DNA of 64,000 nt from Zobellia uliginosa. GTDB taxonomy: Bacteria > Bacteroidota > Bacteroidia > Flavobacteriales > Flavobacteriaceae. Each line of letters starts with the position of its first letter. Within the stretch, counting starts at the first letter, position 1. Location: positions 124,001-188,000 of the forward strand of contig NZ_JAHKPY010000003.1 in NCBI RefSeq assembly GCF_018860745.1, read 5' to 3'. The notes beneath the pieces are model-generated. The model saw nothing but the letters and a program-made list of their open reading frames with translations, was not told where the DNA came from and searched no databases. The translations under genes were made by a program, and so were the position numbers. Of the stretch, positions 2,630-60,861 are shown piece after piece.

Positions 2630-3180
2630 TAACTAAGAGTTTCACACTTCATTTTTTGGTTTGAAATACAACTGTTTTTACTAGATATATATTATGAATA
2701 ATATAGTACGGAGTTTGTCCTCTACAAAGGTATAAGCTTGCAATATAGGGCCTTGTTCGATTTGTTTTTTAAGCAAAAAAATTTAAATCGATTTCCAAAT
2801 AGTTGAAAAAATATCATTTCGTTAATTCAGTTATTGAATAACGTTACTTATTCTATCATAGTTGAAGCTATACAAAGGCTACTAACTCCATTTGGTATTT
2901 GTACACCATCCTGTAATCAACTACAATAATAGCAGAACTCTAGATTTTAATTATAAATAACTTTATTGGTATTTATAGTTGAACGGCCCACAATAAACAT
3001 AGTCGTACTTATTGTTTTATTTTGATGAGCAACATCACCATAATTTTATATAAGGTGTAAAAACTAGTCTAGTAGAAGTAAGGGAACAAACAGCTTATAA
3101 TATCTGTTCAGAGTTAATTAGAAATCTGCCAATATTAAAAAAAAGAGTGTCAGATTAAATTAGGTTCTAGCCGATATGAA
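2630..3180. other. Intergenic region, no gene seen
   Basis: This AT-rich gap lies between the hybrid sensor and the terminator of the MFS gene. I found no convincing reading frame or RNA. The only structure noted is a weak inverted repeat, TATAAATA (2952-2959) with TATTTATA (2970-2977), which may be chance in AT-rich DNA. Confidence 0.5.
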
Positions 3181-3184
3181 GCAG

Positions 3185-3217
3185 AAAAAAAGCCCAATAT
3201 AAAATCGGGCTTTTTTT
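3185..3217 (-). terminator. Rho-independent terminator of the MFS gene
   Basis: AAAAAAAGCCC (3185-3195) pairs with GGGCTTTTTTT (3207-3217) across an 11-base loop. The T-run on the minus strand follows the stem directly, about 20 bases after the MFS stop codon. The stem is symmetrical and could work in both directions. Confidence 0.8.
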
Positions 3218-4974: not shown

Positions 4975-6315
4975 ATGAAAGAAGACAAGACCAAAACCAG
5001 TACGAACAAAAAATCTAGAAGAGATTTTGTTAAGAACACTGCTCTATTTACCGGCGGAGCTATCTTATTGCCAAACCTGCATATGAGTGGTATGGCAAAT
5101 GTAGCAGGAAACAAGAAACTAAAATTAGCATTGGTAGGTTGTGGTGGCCGTGGAACGGGTGCCGCTGTACAAGCTTTGACCGCAGATGAGAATGTAGAAC
5201 TTGTTGCTATGGCAGATGCTTTCGAAGATCGCTTAAAGGGTAGTTTGGCAAATATTTCTAAAGCGATGGGCGAAACCAAAAAAATCAATGTAAAAGAGAA
5301 GAATCAATTTGTTGGTTTTGATGCAGCAACCAAGGCTATGGATTTAGCCGATGTGGTCATTCTCGCAACCCCACCAGGTTTCCGTCCGCAACATTTTGAG
5401 TATGCCGTAAATAACGGTAAACATGTGTTTATGGAAAAACCGGTAGCAACAGACGTTCCAGGAGTACGTAAGGTATTAGCAGCTGCAAAAAAAGCAAAAG
5501 AAAATAAATTGAACGTAGTGGTGGGTCTTCAAAGACACTATCAAGACAGTTATCTGGCCGCTATAGACCAGATTAAAAAAGACTCCATAGGTAAGATAGT
5601 TTCTGGGCAGGTATATTGGAACAGTGGAGGAGTATGGGTTCGTGAAAGACAACCACAACAGAGTGAGCTTGAATATCAAATGAGAAATTGGTATTACTTT
5701 AATTGGCTGTGTGGAGATCATATTTTGGAACAGCACATCCATAATATAGATGTTGCCAATTGGTTTGTTGGTGAGTATCCTATTTCGGCACAAGGAATGG
5801 GGGGTAGACAAGTAAGAAAAGGTAAAGATCACGGAGAAATATTCGATCATCATTTTGTAGAGTATACGTATCCAAGTGGAGCTGTAATTGCTAGTCAATG
5901 TCGTCATCAGCCGGAAACGATGAGCAAGGTTTCGGAATTCTTCCAAGGAACAAAAGGTACTGTTTACACTAAAGGAGATAATGCAACTTTGACGGATTGG
6001 AACGGTAATTCCATATTTGAACACAGAGGAAAAGAAGATCCTAATCCCTATCAGGTAGAACATATTAAACTTTTTGAATCCATAAGAAACGGAGGCGTAA
6101 TTGCCGATGCAGAAAATGGTGCTAAAAGTACTATGAGTGCTATAATCGGTAGAATGGCTACGTATTCTGGTAAGGTCATAAAATGGGATGAGGCTATGCA
6201 ATCTAATATAGACTTGGCACCAGATGAATTAACGTGGGATTCTCCTGCGCCTGTACAACCCAATGCAGATGGTACATATAAAATACCAACACCGGGGGAA
6301 ACAGTTGTTATTTAA
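4975..6315 (+). CDS. Tat-exported Gfo/Idh/MocA family oxidoreductase
   Basis: The 446-residue protein opens with a twin-arginine signal (SRRDFVKN at residues 14-21, then a hydrophobic stretch), so it is predicted to be exported folded with its cofactor. A Rossmann fold follows (LALVGCGGRGTG, about residues 52-63) with the family EKPVATD motif near residue 156. The C-terminal half is the Gfo/Idh/MocA sheet domain. Family members oxidise or reduce sugars or inositols with NAD(P), and exported bacteroidotal members are usually linked to glycan breakdown. The substrate is unknown. It is monocistronic: a terminator follows 25 bases after the stop. Confidence 0.9.
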   Translation: MKEDKTKTSTNKKSRRDFVKNTALFTGGAILLPNLHMSGMANVAGNKKLKLALVGCGGRGTGAAVQALTADENVELVAMADAFEDRLKGSLANISKAMGETKKINVKEKNQFVGFDAATKAMDLADVVILATPPGFRPQHFEYAVNNGKHVFMEKPVATDVPGVRKVLAAAKKAKENKLNVVVGLQRHYQDSYLAAIDQIKKDSIGKIVSGQVYWNSGGVWVRERQPQQSELEYQMRNWYYFNWLCGDHILEQHIHNIDVANWFVGEYPISAQGMGGRQVRKGKDHGEIFDHHFVEYTYPSGAVIASQCRHQPETMSKVSEFFQGTKGTVYTKGDNATLTDWNGNSIFEHRGKEDPNPYQVEHIKLFESIRNGGVIADAENGAKSTMSAIIGRMATYSGKVIKWDEAMQSNIDLAPDELTWDSPAPVQPNADGTYKIPTPGETVVI

Positions 6316-6339
6316 TTCATAAACATCAGAGAATAACAG

Positions 6340-6369
6340 TGTCCCCTTGCTTTTTGGGGACATTTTTTT
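6340..6369 (+). terminator. Rho-independent terminator after Gfo/Idh/MocA gene
   Basis: TGTCCCC (6340-6346) pairs with GGGGACA (6356-6362), followed by a run of seven T. The loop is nine bases. Confidence 0.85.
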
Positions 6370-6406
6370 GTTTTTTTATAAAGAAAGAGACAGCTTTTAA
6401 TATAAT

Positions 6407-6434
6407 GGTTAACCAAAAAATAGGGTTAACTTTG
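6407..6434 (+). promoter_or_regulatory. Promoter with repeated GGTTAAC element ahead of the FGE-like/galactokinase operon
   Basis: TAACTTTG (6427-6434) matches the Bacteroidota -7 consensus TAnnTTTG and lies 23 bases before the start codon. GGTTAACC, a perfect 8-base palindrome (6407-6414), recurs as GGTTAAC (6424-6430), 17 bases downstream and overlapping the -7 box. That spacing is what a repressor site would look like, but the regulator is unknown. A good -33 TTG is not visible. Confidence 0.45.
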
Positions 6435-6457
6435 TTTTCCATTTTTGACATATAGTT

Positions 6458-7600
6458 ATGTATAATACAATTAAAATTTTCGCTTCAGTTGCGGTTATTT
6501 GCTTTTTTATTAGTTGTAAGGAAGAGAAATCCCAAAAGGCAGAAGTACTAAAAACTGCCGAAAAGGTAGAAAAGTCAAAATCCATTACAGTTGATACCAC
6601 GGTTGTAAAAGAAAAACCAGAAGATGTGGCAACTCCAAAAGGAATGGTTTGGATTCCGGGAACTGTTTTTTCACAGGGTGCGGTCCCACAAGATAAAGCA
6701 GCAATGGAGCATGAAAAGCCCGCGCATAAAGTTGCGATTGATGGTTTTTTTATGGATATCACGGAAGTTACTAATAACGACTTCAAAAAATTTGTAAAAG
6801 AAACAGGTTATGAAACTGTAGCAGAACGAGAAATTAATTGGGAAGAAATGAAAAAACAACTTCCTGAAGGCACCCCTAAACCCCATGATAGCATTATGCA
6901 GCCTGGTTCGCTGACTTTTAAACAAGCTAAAAGTTCGGTGCCTAATCTTTATGATTTTTCGCAATGGTGGAGTTGGACCATAGGTGCTGATTGGCAGCAT
7001 CCAAATGGCCCTGGCAGTTCTATTAAAGGAAAAGGTAACTACCCGGTAGTACATATTGCTTATGAAGATGCTTTGGCGTATTGCCAATGGGCCAATAGGC
7101 GTTTGCCTACAGAAGCGGAGTGGGAACGCGCTGCCCGTGGCAACCATTTAACAACAACTTATTTCTGGGGAGATGAGGATACCAAATTATCCGAAAAAGC
7201 CAATACGTGGGAAGGGGAATTTCCTGTAACCAATGTTGAGACGGATGGTTTTGGGCTTCGAGCTCCGGTAAAGACTTATCCTGCTAATGATTTTGGGTTG
7301 TATGATATGGCAGGTAATGTTTGGGAATGGACTAATGATTGGTATAATACCAATTACTATAATGAATTGAATTCCGCATATCCAATAGCTAAAAACCCAT
7401 TAGGAGCGGACCAGGCTTATAATGAAAGAGACCCTTACGCAAAGGAAAAAGTCATGAAAGGCGGGTCGTTTTTGTGTAATGCAAGTTATTGTGCCAGTTA
7501 TAGAGTATCATCTCGTATGGCTACTAGTTTAGATTCATCATTAGAACATTTAGGTTTTAGGACTGTTGCTACACCAGAAATGGTGCGCAATTCAAAATAA
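6458..7600 (+). CDS. Lipoprotein of the SUMF1/formylglycine-generating enzyme family with both catalytic cysteines
   Basis: The 380-residue protein starts with a lipoprotein signal (FFISC, Cys at about residue 21) and a Lys/Glu-rich linker. The FGE-sulfatase fold then runs from MVWIPGTVF (about residue 67) through RRLPTEAEWERAARG and DMAGNVWEWTNDWY to the end. Most family members lack the catalytic pair, but here C340 and C345 sit in GGSFLCNASYCASYR, the same five-residue spacing as the copper-binding Cys336/Cys341 of human FGE. It is therefore a good candidate for an enzyme that oxidises a sulfatase Cys to formylglycine. The lipid anchor would place it outside the cytoplasm. It shares an operon with galactokinase, 12 bases downstream. 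Alternative: a non-catalytic binding protein of the same fold. Confidence 0.85.
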   Translation: MYNTIKIFASVAVICFFISCKEEKSQKAEVLKTAEKVEKSKSITVDTTVVKEKPEDVATPKGMVWIPGTVFSQGAVPQDKAAMEHEKPAHKVAIDGFFMDITEVTNNDFKKFVKETGYETVAEREINWEEMKKQLPEGTPKPHDSIMQPGSLTFKQAKSSVPNLYDFSQWWSWTIGADWQHPNGPGSSIKGKGNYPVVHIAYEDALAYCQWANRRLPTEAEWERAARGNHLTTTYFWGDEDTKLSEKANTWEGEFPVTNVETDGFGLRAPVKTYPANDFGLYDMAGNVWEWTNDWYNTNYYNELNSAYPIAKNPLGADQAYNERDPYAKEKVMKGGSFLCNASYCASYRVSSRMATSLDSSLEHLGFRTVATPEMVRNSK

Positions 7601-55056: not shown

Positions 55057-56277
55057 CTAGTCAATTAATTTAGTAATTACCTGTGTTTCATTGTGTAAAG
55101 TCTTGTGAACAGGGCATTTGTCGGCAATTTGAAGAATTCGTTTTTTCTGTTTTTCATCTAAATCCGCTGAAAGCTTTATATCTCTGTCAAAAGTGTCTAT
55201 TTTGGCCGCATCGGACTCACAATTCGTACAATCTACAGCATGGCTTCTACTGTACGATGTATGAACCTCTATATTATCTATTTCCCAACCCTTTCTTTTG
55301 GCATACATCTGTACGGTCATTGCCGTACATGCAGAAAGCCCTGCAGAAACCAATTCATAGGGCGAAGGCCCAAAATCATTACCACCAATAGCAGTAGGTT
55401 CGTCCGCAGTTAAAAAATGATTGCCAACTTTCATCTGTGTCGTGAATCCATCTGAGTCATCTAAGCTAGCAACTACATGGTGTTTTGTTTTTGGTTCTTT
55501 TGGTGCTTCGTTTTCAAGTGACAAATATCTTTTGGCCCAACCAGATATGATTTCGCCGGCATAATGGGAATCTCTCTTATTAGATAATAAATGATCCGCA
55601 CCATCTAAAGAAACAAAACTCTTTGGGTGATGGGCCGCCACGTATATTTCTTCTGCATTCTTTATTTCTACCGTATTGTCTTGAGGGGAATGTAGAATTA
55701 ATATGGGTTTACGAAGTTTACGTAATACTTGTGCAAGCGGCTTATGCTGTAAATCGTCTAAAAATTGTTTTTTAATTGTAAAATCTCTTCCACTAAGATT
55801 TATGACGGCTTTACCATTTTCCTCAATTTCATGGATTCCACTTTTTAAAAGGTGTTCTATATGTATTGGGTTGGATGGCGCACCAATGGTCGTTATGGCT
55901 TTTACAGACGAAATTTTTTCGGCGGCAAAGATAACGGCGGCGCCACCTAAAGAATGGCCAACCAATAACGTAGGAGCCTTATAGTCCTCTTTCAGATAAT
56001 CTGCGGCGGCCACCAAATCTTCTACGTTTCCTGAGAAATTAGTATCTGCAAAATCCCCTTCGCTTTCACCTAAACCTGTAAAATCAAAACGTAATACTCC
56101 AAAACCATTTGCGGTCAACGCTTTACTAATGTTCCTGACCGCTGTCAAATTTTTAGTACATGTAAAGCAATGGGCGAAAATGGCAAAATTATGCGGATGT
56201 CTATTAGCAGGTAATTCTAACCTACCCACTAAATCTTGTCCGCTTTTGTTTTTGAAGCTTACTTTTTGAAGGTTCAT
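55057..56277 (-). CDS. Alpha/beta hydrolase fused to OsmC domain
   Basis: The 406-residue protein has an N-terminal alpha/beta hydrolase with GHSLGGAAVI (catalytic Ser) and a C-terminal OsmC domain (about residue 265 onward) with its two redox cysteines (SACTAMTVQMYA and CPVHKTL). OsmC domains reduce organic hydroperoxides. The fusion is a known bifunctional family; the hydrolase substrate is not known. Confidence 0.9.
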   Translation of the reverse strand: MNLQKVSFKNKSGQDLVGRLELPANRHPHNFAIFAHCFTCTKNLTAVRNISKALTANGFGVLRFDFTGLGESEGDFADTNFSGNVEDLVAAADYLKEDYKAPTLLVGHSLGGAAVIFAAEKISSVKAITTIGAPSNPIHIEHLLKSGIHEIEENGKAVINLSGRDFTIKKQFLDDLQHKPLAQVLRKLRKPILILHSPQDNTVEIKNAEEIYVAAHHPKSFVSLDGADHLLSNKRDSHYAGEIISGWAKRYLSLENEAPKEPKTKHHVVASLDDSDGFTTQMKVGNHFLTADEPTAIGGNDFGPSPYELVSAGLSACTAMTVQMYAKRKGWEIDNIEVHTSYSRSHAVDCTNCESDAAKIDTFDRDIKLSADLDEKQKKRILQIADKCPVHKTLHNETQVITKLID

Positions 56278-57260: not shown

Positions 57261-58253
57261 CTATAAATTTATATTCACGTAGACTGATAGTCTATTACGG
57301 AGTTCTACTTTATCGCTATTTAAATTTTGACTAATCGGAAGCATTCCGGTCAAACCTAATGCGTACCTATTATAACTTGCCTCTACACTTAATTTTCCTA
57401 GGAAAATATCACCTTTGGTATCTGCTACTTCAAAACCTAATTCTTTATTGGTGCCATAAATTTCTTCCGCAATTCCAACGATAGGGGTTAATGAAACATC
57501 GCCTAAAAAATAGGTTTTAAATGCATTGATTCCCAAGTTCAATTGGTTTCCAAATTGATAATTTTTTGGATTTTTAGTTTTGATAGTATAATTTACCATA
57601 GAGCTAATCCCCCAGTTTCTATAGGTAAATCCATAATTCATGGCAAGAACATAGTCCCAACTACCATTGCCTAATTGGAAACTTGGGTTTACACTTCCTT
57701 CGTTGTTATCCTTGTCATATTTACCCGTTGGCATTTTAATTCCCCCTCCTAATTGCAGAAAATGTTGAGGTTTTATGGTTACAACGCTATCTGGTCTAGC
57801 TTTGATTAAATTATAGTAACCAAGTACACTAATATCACCAATACCATTAATGTTCTGTTCTGTATTATCCGGTAATATTCTGTTGTGAAATTGATAAGGA
57901 ACTATAACATTTAGAATAACTCTTTTAGTAACAGGTATATTGGCCCAAGCCTGTACGGTATTGAAGTTTTCGGTAATCCAAGGAGAGTCTGCAAAAATTC
58001 CATCACGAGAACGATACTCTTGACCAATATAACGTACGCCTATAAAATTATTATTTAATCCGGTGCCATACCCCATGCTACCGCCACTACTTCCACAACC
58101 ACACGTATCGCAAAAATCAAAATATTCACTATTGTAATACAGTAATTTTGTACAATCAATTGGGTCTGGTAAAGACGCTTTTGCTTTGTCATTTCCATAA
58201 GAAAGCGCGGTGTTGAGACTTATACCTAGTATGGCTATAAGCCTAAATAGCAT
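57261..58253 (-). CDS. Predicted outer-membrane protein with N-terminal Cys cluster
   Basis: The ATG at 58253 (MLFRLIAILGISLNTALSYG) gives 330 residues with a signal peptide, one base after the peroxidase stop. An in-frame ATG at 58280 would overlap that gene. The mature N-terminus carries C34, C48, C51 and C53 (FCDTCGCG), a likely metal site. The remainder is a barrel-type, Asn/Tyr/Gly-rich chain ending in a typical YVNINL. No exact family is recognised; a role as channel for copper is inferred from the operon. Confidence 0.8.
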   Translation of the reverse strand: MLFRLIAILGISLNTALSYGNDKAKASLPDPIDCTKLLYYNSEYFDFCDTCGCGSSGGSMGYGTGLNNNFIGVRYIGQEYRSRDGIFADSPWITENFNTVQAWANIPVTKRVILNVIVPYQFHNRILPDNTEQNINGIGDISVLGYYNLIKARPDSVVTIKPQHFLQLGGGIKMPTGKYDKDNNEGSVNPSFQLGNGSWDYVLAMNYGFTYRNWGISSMVNYTIKTKNPKNYQFGNQLNLGINAFKTYFLGDVSLTPIVGIAEEIYGTNKELGFEVADTKGDIFLGKLSVEASYNRYALGLTGMLPISQNLNSDKVELRNRLSVYVNINL

Positions 58254-58254
58254 T

Positions 58255-59301
58255 CTAATATTCTGCAAATCTTTCGTCATTTATATAAGTTTCATCTGTT
58301 AATGTGCCCAAAAAGGCCAGTAACGTAGTTTTTTCATTATCACTTAGGGAAATTCCTAATTCACCATCTTCATTTAAAATGGGGTCCAAAGTAGGGGAGT
58401 CCGTAACTGAATTGCTATAAAAATCAAGTACGGCCTCTAAAGTGCCAAACCTACCATCGTGCATGTAAGGAGCGGTAAGCTCAACATTTCTTAAACTGGG
58501 TACTTTGAACTTGTGGCGGTCAGCAGCATCTCCACTTACTTCTTCTCTACCTATATCATTAAGAGAAGGGTTTGGAGCTAGACCATTATTTCTAAAAGCG
58601 TCATCGCTAAAAAGATCTGAGGTATGACAAGAGGCGCATTTGTTTGTAAAAACAGCAAAGCCTTCTTTTTCTTCATCGGTAAATGTTCCACCTACTTCCT
58701 GACGCACGTATTTGTCATATTTAGAATCTGCGGAAACCATCATTACCATAAATTGAGCAAGGGCTTTTAAGAAATTCTCATTGTTGACTTCGCCATCTTC
58801 AAAGGCAGAAGCAAACAACTTTTGATATTCCTCATCACTTTTAATTTTAGCAAGTACACCGCTTACCGTTTCGCCCATTTCTACCTCGTTGGTAATGGGA
58901 ATAATAGGAAAGAGGTCCAAATGATTTGTAGCACCATCCCACGCAAATTCTTTCATGAATGCTGCGTTCTGAATGGCAGGTGTATTTCTAACCCCTTCCA
59001 AATCATCAATACCATGGCTAAATTGGTGACCGTGATGTGTAAATGCAGTGCGTTGTTCATGACAAAAACCACAAGAAATAAATCCATTACTAGAAAGGCG
59101 ACCGTCGTAAAAAAGCTTTTTACCAAGCTCAAAACCTATAGTTGTTGGCGGATTTGCCTCTAGGTTATAAACAGCATCTGGGAAATTAGAAGGCACAGAA
59201 AATTCTAAAGGTTCATTTATGGTTTCATATGTATCATCAGAAGAATTACAGGACCAAAAAACCAGCGATAGAAGTGCCGTATATAGGGTTGCTTTAAGCA
59301 T
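58255..59301 (-). CDS. Di-heme cytochrome c peroxidase, MbnH/MauG-type lipoprotein
   Basis: The 348-residue protein has a lipobox (LSLVFWSC, Cys 18) and two c-heme motifs, C77-G-F-C80-H81 and C222-A-S-C225-H226, plus W121 in FAWDGA, which corresponds to the conserved interheme Trp of this superfamily. It belongs to bacterial cytochrome c peroxidases, the group containing MauG and MbnH. Adjacency to an MbnP-like gene points to MbnH, which in a methanotroph modifies MbnP; simple peroxidase function remains possible. Confidence 0.9.
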   Translation of the reverse strand: MLKATLYTALLSLVFWSCNSSDDTYETINEPLEFSVPSNFPDAVYNLEANPPTTIGFELGKKLFYDGRLSSNGFISCGFCHEQRTAFTHHGHQFSHGIDDLEGVRNTPAIQNAAFMKEFAWDGATNHLDLFPIIPITNEVEMGETVSGVLAKIKSDEEYQKLFASAFEDGEVNNENFLKALAQFMVMMVSADSKYDKYVRQEVGGTFTDEEKEGFAVFTNKCASCHTSDLFSDDAFRNNGLAPNPSLNDIGREEVSGDAADRHKFKVPSLRNVELTAPYMHDGRFGTLEAVLDFYSNSVTDSPTLDPILNEDGELGISLSDNEKTTLLAFLGTLTDETYINDERFAEY

Positions 59302-59372
59302 TTTAATCTAATTATGACAACCGACTTTTGTGAAGCCGGTCGTCAATTATTGTAGATGTATGGCAATTGTAA

Positions 59373-60176
59373 TTAGTGACCGTTACCATTATGAACGTGG
59401 TCTACTACAAACATCTCAGAAGTATTAACCGCAATCTGAGGAGATTTTTCGGCGTCTACCATGATTACCGACTTTTCGGTAAGTTCAATATCAGTAGTAG
59501 CTCCTGCTAATATTTTAGAAGCATCGATTTTTAAGTGAATGTTAGAATCAATACCATCTCCAACAACAACGTTTTCTGGTAATTCCAAAGTAACTTCTTT
59601 GTAATTGTCAAGACTTGACCCGTGGCTGCCCATGTGAATTTTGAACTCCGTAGCTTCCGTTATGGTTGCAGATGTAAATGTACCCTCAAAGTTTAAAAAC
59701 TTGTAACCTGCTTGCCATGCCCACATCATGTTGTTTTCTTCTGCAAGCGTTAAGAAATCACCTTGGCCTTCAGCACCTTGTAGGTATTTTTCTTGATCAA
59801 CACCAACTCCGAACTTTAATGTAGTATACTCACCGGCAGGAACATCTGCAAGAGCTACTTGGTCTTCCTCATTTTCTTGATTGATGATGAAATAGCTATC
59901 ATCTTTAGCATAAACAAATTCTTCACCATCTTTATTAACAAGTCTAATGTTACTTATGATATAATTAAAACGGTTTATAGTTATTGTTTCACCATTGGCA
60001 TTAGCTGCGTTTGCAGTTCCTAAAACCAAGTCGTTACCATTAAAGCCATTATCATAGGTTAGGGAAATTTCTCCACTTCCAGTTAGGGTTTCTTCGCTAG
60101 TTGCATCATCATCGTTTGAGCAAGAGGTCATAAAAAGTGCGAATACAGCGGAAAGAGCTAATAAAGAATTTTTCAT
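59373..60176 (-). CDS. MbnP-like copper-binding lipoprotein
   Basis: The 267-residue protein has a lipobox (LFMTSCSND, Cys 19) and an all-beta domain matching MbnP in layout: INRFNYIISNIRLVNKDG and FKIHMGSHGSS, with W152 and W154 in MMWAWQAG and His-rich ends (H181, H185, H260, H262, H267). In the methanotroph MbnP a Trp is oxidised by MbnH to kynurenine, creating a Cu site. It sits directly upstream of the di-heme gene, 71 bases apart. Confidence 0.85.
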   Translation of the reverse strand: MKNSLLALSAVFALFMTSCSNDDDATSEETLTGSGEISLTYDNGFNGNDLVLGTANAANANGETITINRFNYIISNIRLVNKDGEEFVYAKDDSYFIINQENEEDQVALADVPAGEYTTLKFGVGVDQEKYLQGAEGQGDFLTLAEENNMMWAWQAGYKFLNFEGTFTSATITEATEFKIHMGSHGSSLDNYKEVTLELPENVVVGDGIDSNIHLKIDASKILAGATTDIELTEKSVIMVDAEKSPQIAVNTSEMFVVDHVHNGNGH

Positions 60177-60382
60177 CAGTAAATATTTTATTCTCAGATC
60201 ACGAACCTAAAAGCATTTGTTTTATTGCTGTTCAGGTATACAAGATCCAATTGTTTTTTGGATATTATTTATGCGATAAGTGCTTACCTAATTAAAAGAT
60301 AAGATTATCATAGTTTTTAAGGGAAATTTGCCTGTCAGGTACCATAAAAGGAACAATATAGACAAGCTAACATAGAGAAGTA

Positions 60383-60760
60383 CTATGCTAATTCAGGCGG
60401 ATGGGAAATGTCTGCTGTAAGTAGAAGCGAGGATAAGTTTTGTGGTATTTTGTAATTTCCTTTATGGACGTCAATATTTTCAACATTGAAATCTAATTGC
60501 AAAAGGGACTGGAAAAATACAGTTGTCTGCATTTCTATTTTAGAACTCTTTTCTCCAAAAGGGTTTTTACTGTTCTCCTCTGATTCTTTGGCAAGTTGCT
60601 TGGCAAGGTAGCATTTACCGTCGCAGTTAAGCATCGGTTTATCTCTATTCTCACATAATACATTTTTGATATAGGTATAGTTGGCGATATACTCCGCCAC
60701 TGGCCAAAGAGGTTTGACCATCATTATAAATGCTACAAAAAGTATTACGCATTGCTTCAC
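60383..60760 (-). CDS. Small Cys-motif membrane or secreted protein of the copper cluster
   Basis: The 125-residue protein starts at a GTG (KQCVILFVAFIMMVKPLWPV), with no in-frame ATG nearby, and has one N-terminal hydrophobic segment. C36, C46 and C50 form a Cx9Cx3C motif (LCENRDKPMLNCDGKC), flanked by charged helices. I do not recognise a named domain. Position upstream of the MbnP-like gene on the same strand suggests a role in copper delivery. Confidence 0.7.
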   Translation of the reverse strand: MKQCVILFVAFIMMVKPLWPVAEYIANYTYIKNVLCENRDKPMLNCDGKCYLAKQLAKESEENSKNPFGEKSSKIEMQTTVFFQSLLQLDFNVENIDVHKGNYKIPQNLSSLLLTADISHPPELA

Positions 60761-60861
60761 ATCGCAAAAATACTTTCTTTTTTCTTTTGAAGAAATATAT
60801 TGCGACCAAAATGATAATATTTAGTTAATAAACACCTGTGGATAAGAAACTAGAATACTTT

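Follow-up and report, generated by a model that had tools for sequence, protein, structure and literature searches.

Copper sites in which a tryptophan-derived kynurenine lies beside two histidines, with a di-heme protein as the partner of the copper protein, are found in MopE/SACCP and CorA/CorB of methanotrophs (PMC3912023). The same idea applies to MbnP and its partner MbnH; at the sequence level, the copper proteins MopE and CorA bear no marked similarity to MbnP (PMC3621798). CruR of Bordetella pertussis (PMC9426467) and CutF of Rhodobacter capsulatus (PMC9973294) both carry an export signal, a Cys motif, and a C-terminal Pro-Pro arrest-like motif, and both are encoded first in copper operons. 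CruR operons can include genes for a TonB receptor, a PepSY protein, and MbnPH-like proteins (PMC9426467), and Bacteroidota supply 40% (normalised) of the CutF-like proteins (PMC9973294). Here we describe a locus in a stretch of 64,000 nucleotides (nt) from Zobellia uliginosa, a member of the Flavobacteriaceae (contig NZ_JAHKPY010000003.1, positions 124,001 to 188,000 of the forward strand; hereafter the window). Its four genes form a real conserved unit. The first encodes a small protein with three spaced cysteines (Cx9), the second and third encode lipoproteins of the MbnP and di-heme MbnH kinds, and the fourth encodes an outer-membrane channel whose N-terminal tail carries cysteines. The MbnPH pair and the CutF-like leader are known; what is new is that both are joined with a Cys-tailed channel as a conserved operon of Bacteroidota.

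The four open reading frames (ORFs) all lie on the minus strand of the window between positions 57261 and 60760, where the original prediction had placed them. From the upstream end, the features are as follows.

60765..60772, minus strand: match to the -7 promoter motif TAnnTTTG, TATTTTTG, which we take to be the Bacteroidota consensus; 4 nt separate its 3' end from the GTG codon at which the putative Cx9 leader ORF begins
60383..60760, minus strand: Cx9 ORF, 125 amino acids, GTG start, C36-x9-C46-x-G-x-C50, N-terminal hydrophobic export signal, C-terminal HPP
60177..60382, minus strand: Cx9-MbnP intergenic region, 206 nt
59373..60176, minus strand: MbnP-family lipoprotein, 267 amino acids; lipobox Cys19; M150, W152, W154, H181
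58255..59301, minus strand: MbnH-like di-heme lipoprotein, 348 amino acids; lipobox Cys18; CGFCH at 77 and CASCH at 222; E141, Y295
57261..58280, minus strand: predicted 12-strand outer-membrane channel of the FapF/COG4313 type, 339 amino acids; N-terminal C57-D-x-C60-x-C62

The MbnH and channel genes had been described as separated by one base. This gap is obtained only when translation of the channel begins at the second Met (58253); when both ORFs are taken at their longest, they overlap by 26 nt.

The locus shares with MbnP and MbnH (Protein Data Bank (PDB) entries 7l6g and 6e1c) the PF20243 domain, a WxW motif with a following His, and an adjoining di-heme partner. It differs from MbnP/MbnH loci with methanobactin genes in having the putative leader ORF and the 12-strand channel instead, and the methanobactin enzyme family PF05114 (MbnB_TglH_ChrH) has no match anywhere in the window's genome, as the original prediction had it for the genes in view. 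The novelty it saw in an MbnPH pair without methanobactin genes had been anticipated, because such pairs have been known since 2013 (PMC3621798). CrtA-type copper receptor operons (cruR-crtA-PepSY; PMC12914433) have in common with the locus a leader ORF, an outer-membrane transporter, and a link to copper, whereas the transporter of the window looks like a TonB-independent channel, and Cx9 heads receptor-PepSY pairs at other loci. The four-gene unit is not described in the literature that we found, in a search that reached few subscription journals and not the lists of PMC9973294. The Cx9 family may already be among the CutF-like proteins of that paper, the main text of which does not mention MbnP.

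Matches to PF20243 occur in 119 of 249 genomes of the family and in 78 of 296 genomes of the phylum. Of the 36 strong channel matches (at least 249 bits) in the 249 genomes of the family, 35 have a PF20243 match next to them, more than chance would give; the remaining one (G015; G and L numbers are our handles for genomes and loci) comes from a genome that is fragmented and has no match to MbnP. The window and 100 MbnP neighbourhoods were compared, the latter hand-picked from the PF20243 matches at about one per genus with high scores favoured, so that the fractions are not frequencies: an MbnH-like gene is present at all 101, Cx9 at 61, and the channel at 47. The prevailing order is Cx9-MbnP-MbnH-channel on one strand, and it extends beyond Flavobacteriaceae to certain other families, orders, and classes of Bacteroidota. 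Exceptions are L125 and L144, where the channel precedes MbnP, and L096, which has its MbnH-like gene some 5 kb further on. When named genomes were scanned with 12 sequences of the channel, 335 relatives were obtained, the nearest being in Zobellia species. Among the best 80 of these 335, Cx9 is present at 79, MbnP at 79, and MbnH at 77, in agreement with the co-occurrence on which the original prediction depended; the sole one of the best 80 without Cx9 and MbnP (L291) lies at a contig edge. At L193 in a Zobellia genome (G236), Cx9, MbnP, and MbnH are gone, and the channel gene has lost its 5' half; its 3' remnant (5898-6517) stands between two intact flanks, a pattern as after one deletion. 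The co-occurrence at the 80 channel-retrieved loci, the shared order, and the joint loss at L193 are what establishes the unit as real.

The MbnP-like lipoprotein matches PF20243 with 161.8 bits (E = 2.3e-47), far over the gathering cut-off of 27, and is the only match to this family in the window's genome. A profile built from 55 MbnP relatives picks up the MbnP structure 7l6g (E = 3.9e-7). In the alignment of these 55 proteins, W152 and H181 are present in all 55, W154 in 52, and M150 in 49. The window protein has the WxW motif and the aligned His as W152, W154, and H181, and the two Trp residues are the only ones in its sequence. The four-Cys motif named in the 7l6g record is not in the window MbnP, the sole Cys of which is the lipobox Cys19. 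Our first set comprises 103 distinct MbnPs scoring over 50 bits (two matches below 50 bits were left out), of which 102 keep both W152 and H181; the exception is the second tandem copy at L157. Tandem doubling of the MbnP/MbnH pair was observed at L252, L282, L334, and L335, where the second MbnP keeps both Trp residues and lacks the His aligned to H181 (Glu or a gap).

The adjoining protein has a di-heme cytochrome c peroxidase (CCP)/MauG domain with two CxxCH motifs (PF03150, E = 6.1e-51). Its best PDB match is MbnH (6e1c), which also comes first in a search with a profile from 31 MbnH-like partners; the naming of both lipoproteins in the original prediction is thus sustained. In common with 6e1c are the two CxxCH motifs, a conserved Glu (E141, 31 of 31 aligned MbnH-like proteins), and a Tyr replacing the peroxidase Met. 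This Tyr (Y295, 29 of 31) aligns to the Tyr of 6e1c and to a Met of 1iqc, at the position of the axial Met in classical CCP peroxidases.

Loci without a local MbnH bear on what this protein does. Five distinct ones were found (L257, L268, L286, L347, and L350). W152 is lost at four of them, the residue being Ser, Pro, Ser, and Gly at L257, L268, L286, and L347, respectively. H181 is lost at three (Tyr, Met, and Tyr at L257, L268, and L286, respectively), where the MbnP reading frames are still open, and W154 is retained at all five. At L350, W152 is kept, and the genome holds a full MbnH of 445 bits elsewhere and no second MbnP. The genomes of L257 and L347 contain just weaker MbnH matches (at most 300 bits) within larger frames, and in those of L286 and L268 a second MbnP has an MbnH-like gene nearby; in the genome of L268, this MbnP has a stop. 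L349 is on the same contig as L286 and was counted once with it, its 18-bit MbnH-like match being taken as chance; L356 is interrupted by a contig end. At L286 (about 2929-3210), where MbnH is missing, a small lipoprotein stands between MbnP and the channel, with a Cys motif recognized by eye as YHS/TRASH-like.

In the set from named genomes, W152 is present in 80 of 80 MbnP ORFs having MbnH and H181 in 78, the other two being second copies with Glu there; a split MbnP gene at L244 was counted by its C-terminal half, and the N-terminal half was left out. In a Flavobacterium set (69 of 70 strong channel places, 30 of these with just 1.5 kb flanks, and one 98-bit fragment), W152 is retained in each of the 37 full-length MbnPs behind which MbnH is encoded. 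Over the two sets, which share species, 117 of 117 MbnP ORFs with an adjacent MbnH retain this residue. The four loci without W152 are not grouped in a channel tree (FastTree) that has weak support at several nodes, and four independent MbnH-loss events are likely. Because W152 is lost at four of five MbnH-less loci and kept in all MbnH-adjacent MbnPs of the two sets, MbnH appears to act on W152. The pattern supports the view that MbnH is required for whatever W152 does, and it fits a Trp-to-kynurenine step. The first Trp is reportedly the residue converted in MbnP, according to a 2021 PNAS paper.

The original prediction treated the small Cys protein as a further copper-handling part. Its features fit a regulatory role better: Cx9 looks like a copper-sensing leader ORF of the CutF/CruR type, because of its operon-first position, its invariant Cys motif, its poorly conserved linker of near-fixed length, and its C-terminal Pro-Pro. 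In an alignment of 66 Cx9 sequences, six columns are invariant (C36, C46, G48, C50, P121, and P122). Pro-Pro is found near the end of 192 of 195 distinct sequences, two of the other three being cut short, and lies 62-72 residues (median 69) behind the last Cys. At most four residues follow it in 180 of the 192, and His, Arg, or Lys precedes it in 167. Other ORFs at the same loci have Pro-Pro in the last eight residues in 52 of 3890 cases, a background that counts every ORF, including many that are not genes. In size, ending, and next gene, Cx9 agrees with the rules for CutF-like proteins in PMC9973294, with fewer than 150 amino acids (125), Pro-Pro in the last 15 residues (HPPELA end), and a same-strand gene within 1000 nt (206 nt). 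Like CutF and CruR, it is small and probably exported, keeps its spacing, and is poorly structured. It differs from them in having C-x9-C-x3-C and not CXXC, in the lack of a DUF2946 match, and in its Bacteroidota hosts; a CXXC motif with RAPP at about 45 residues is replaced by CxxxC and mostly [HKR]PP. Searches of Cx9 gave no convincing Pfam or NCBIfam family (single-member matches to unrelated families, the best at 0.001 to DAN, 5 of 66, were taken as chance), no solved relative by sequence at E of at most 10, and no confirmed relative in viral contigs. A 117-residue frame with CDIC and a C-terminal RGPP was seen at L383 (G735) in another family of the order; it scores 17.2 bits against DUF2946, under the cut-off, is distinct from Cx9, and is perhaps another type of leader ORF.

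The -7 motif is enriched around the Cx9 start. In the 180 nt around it, the motif occurs at 53 of 79 named loci against a shuffle mean of 8.8, and in 35 of those 53 it ends at most 4 nt from the approximate start. In the Cx9-MbnP intergenic region, it occurs at 3 of 79 against a shuffle mean of 7.1, which is no enrichment. Because of this difference, one near-leaderless transcript probably starts at Cx9. As an alternative to the leader ORF, Cx9 could act as a secreted chaperone for copper or as a protein that joins outer-membrane proteins as their structural partner. Its hydrophobic export signal, three invariant Cys residues, and invariant Gly would suit such a protein, as would its occurrence with outer-membrane proteins of three types. 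Against this, the AlphaFold model of the window Cx9 has no confident fold (predicted template modelling score (pTM) 0.25; hydrophobic N-terminal helix 2-26) and was too poor for a fold search. The linker has a pairwise identity of 22% against 18% in shuffles, yet its length has a standard deviation of 2.25 residues. Also against it are the closeness of Pro-Pro to the end and the place of the gene right behind the enriched promoter motif. We consider that role unlikely and continue with the leader ORF.

Cx9 also occurs without MbnP. Forty Cx9 loci were chosen among the matches listed (L193 for its channel remnant), and their fractions are not frequencies. At the 39 without MbnP, the next gene, for which we took the longest ORF on the same strand with a start no more than 700 nt away, encodes a TonB-receptor-size protein at 28 (26 of which match PF07715), a second type of channel at 9 (one a fragment), and something else at 2. 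Of the 40 stretches, 5 have nosZ close by and 6 have a PepSY gene. We draw the link to copper because Cx9 precedes TonB-receptor-size proteins elsewhere and because nosZ is near some Cx9 loci. Cx9 and a TonB-receptor-like gene were seen near a nitrous-oxide reductase gene at L205, L210, L182, L194, and L206, with a YtkA-like protein at all of these but L210.

The structure model of the channel is a 12-strand barrel ending at the C-terminus, the fold expected of a COG4313/Phenol_MetA_deg channel, and FapF is the closest fold. PF13557 matches 3 of 47 relatives and not the window channel, and no solved relative was found by sequence at E of at most 10. The channel differs from COG4313/Phenol_MetA_deg proteins and FapF in a near-invariant CxxCxC in the N-terminal segment and in its strict partnership with MbnP. 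A CxxCxC at the mature N-terminus had been predicted; the motif is indeed present (57, 60, and 62), but in the window it begins about 28 residues past the end of the hydrophobic signal (assigned by eye and from the model), and it directly follows the signal in several relatives. Strand 1 comes after segment 57-78, and residue 58 is the first one aligned to FapF. With the tail ahead of strand 1 and the barrel running to the C-terminus, the model places CxxCxC most likely in the periplasm, and not at the surface as first proposed.

Since the closest fold is that of a polypeptide exporter, and MopE and CorA are surface proteins (PMC3912023, PMC3621798), the channel might secrete or display MbnP or a part of it, as happens with part of MopE, so that the copper site works outside the cell. 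MbnP/MbnH pairs exist without the channel, together with TonB-receptor-like proteins or other lipoproteins, and COG4313 channels are regarded as uptake channels (PMC4493636); we regard secretion or display of MbnP as very improbable. The second channel-like outer-membrane protein behind Cx9 was seen at L180 (4887-5906), L183, L184, L188, L190, L191, L196, L198, and L178, the last being a 140-residue fragment. GDHMH or GDHTH occurs near its start in 6 of the 9 seen, and a small lipoprotein with HDE[VI]MPKM lies near it at 5 of the 9 loci.

With moderate confidence, we regard the locus as an operon for copper acquisition in Bacteroidota that is regulated by copper and yields a kynurenine copper site. 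A single promoter at the start of the Cx9 gene would drive the operon, and Cx9 would be translated first and exported during synthesis. By analogy with CruR and CutF, its Cys cluster would sense copper and its C-terminal [HKR]PP would slow the ribosome, so that the copper status sets the making of the products of the next genes; repression by copper is a guess, and CruR and CutF act in opposite senses. MbnH, as an envelope di-heme lipoprotein, would oxidise W152 of MbnP, probably to kynurenine, as suggested by MbnP, MopE, and CorA and supported by the co-loss. This would complete a copper site together with H181. The TonB-independent 12-strand channel would admit copper or a small copper complex, with its CxxCxC tail at or inside the periplasmic mouth, and the tail may hand the metal to MbnP; this passage through the channel to MbnP is the least certain step.

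The same genes could instead serve copper defence: the operon would be on with copper excess or peroxide, MbnP would sequester copper, the di-heme protein would be mainly a peroxidase, and the channel would be an exit. CutF switches its operon on with copper, CutF-like proteins often head resistance-nodulation-division (RND) efflux genes (PMC9973294), and FapF is a secretion channel (PMC5557850). In addition, LysR genes (OxyR-like by eye) lie near the cassette at 11 and Dps-like genes at 10 of the 101 loci, including L067 and L071 (one example of each was matched to Pfam). The recurrent cassette at these 101 loci, however, contains no efflux pump, multicopper oxidase, or CusF as a part, and Cx9 precedes TonB-receptor-like proteins, which are importers, at 28 of the 39 other picked loci. 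W152 is kept wherever MbnH adjoins, which a plain peroxidase would not require. We judge defence improbable and retain copper acquisition.

Several points weigh against the acquisition reading. We infer each of its central elements, namely copper and its uptake through the channel, kynurenine in MbnP, copper sensing by Cx9, ribosome arrest, and regulation. The leader does not prove uptake because genes for efflux and detoxification are found behind CutF-like proteins as well (PMC9973294). The window proteins score below the cut-offs of the NCBI equivalogs (MbnP, 55.5 bits against 140 for TIGR04052; MbnH, 216.4 bits against 362.85 for TIGR04039), and by these profiles the pair is related to, but outside, NCBI's narrow group. 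Of the 85 rows in the named set, 16 have Leu in place of M150. A strong channel match is found in just 35 of the 119 MbnP-bearing family genomes, and the CxxCxC stretch is modelled poorly (predicted local distance difference test (pLDDT) under 50 for residues 40-70), so that its place in the barrel is uncertain. G597 and G726, which have MbnH-less loci, still hold MbnH-like genes near another MbnP. Cx9 and the channel stay in the MbnH-less loci, which argues that neither needs the kynurenine site. The spacing between the last Cys and Pro-Pro in Cx9 is longer than the 45 residues of CruR. DUF2946 (PF11162) was rejected as the family of Cx9, with no match listed for 66 members at E of at most 5 in searches where HMMER filters drop weak ones; the window's genome has no PF11162 match at E of at most 1. 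The full two-box promoter pattern is rare (7 of 79 against a shuffle mean of 1.0) and absent from the window, and single-sequence folds of the Cx9-MbnP intergenic RNA from the window and 15 relatives have nothing obviously shared, with no test for covariance made.

MbnP/MbnH pairs keep other company as well. At ten loci (L100-L103, L105, L107-L109, L111, and L149), the pair occurs with Cx9, a YtkA-like lipoprotein, and a TonB-receptor-like protein, the latter two named by homology to examples with Pfam matches. At L062, L082, L099, and L112, it lies beside LVIVD-type proteins (checked against Pfam for L112 only) with neither Cx9 nor the channel, and suf-like genes, recognized by eye, are close to these pairs. 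The original prediction regarded SodC as a natural copper client, a view that the survey does not favour: among the loci searched, sodC is near the cassette solely in Zobellia (the window, L063, L193, L214, L215, L216, and L231), and it is retained at L193 despite the loss of the cassette. Also in the window, at 55057-56277, a Pfam search identified an alpha/beta hydrolase fused to an OsmC domain.

Copper passage over the outer membrane to envelope enzymes is poorly known beyond a few TonB receptors. The locus joins kynurenine copper sites, copper-sensing leader ORFs, and small-molecule channels, which have previously been studied apart. As a bolder proposal, possible but doubtful, Bacteroidota may have a widespread TonB-independent copper entry, in which a gated 12-strand channel with a copper-binding CxxCxC plug would supply a kynurenine-copper lipoprotein under a cotranslational copper-sensing leader ORF; if so, the plug ligands (Cys versus the His/Met of the sister channel type) would define the metal or its redox state. 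The window's genome encodes nosZ, and nitrous-oxide reductase, a copper enzyme of climate interest, is a possible client of the system, whereas SodC has no conserved link to it. The natural MbnH-less loci, in which the first Trp is mostly gone, make the step from MbnH to Trp testable in cultivable marine and soil bacteria without methanobactin.

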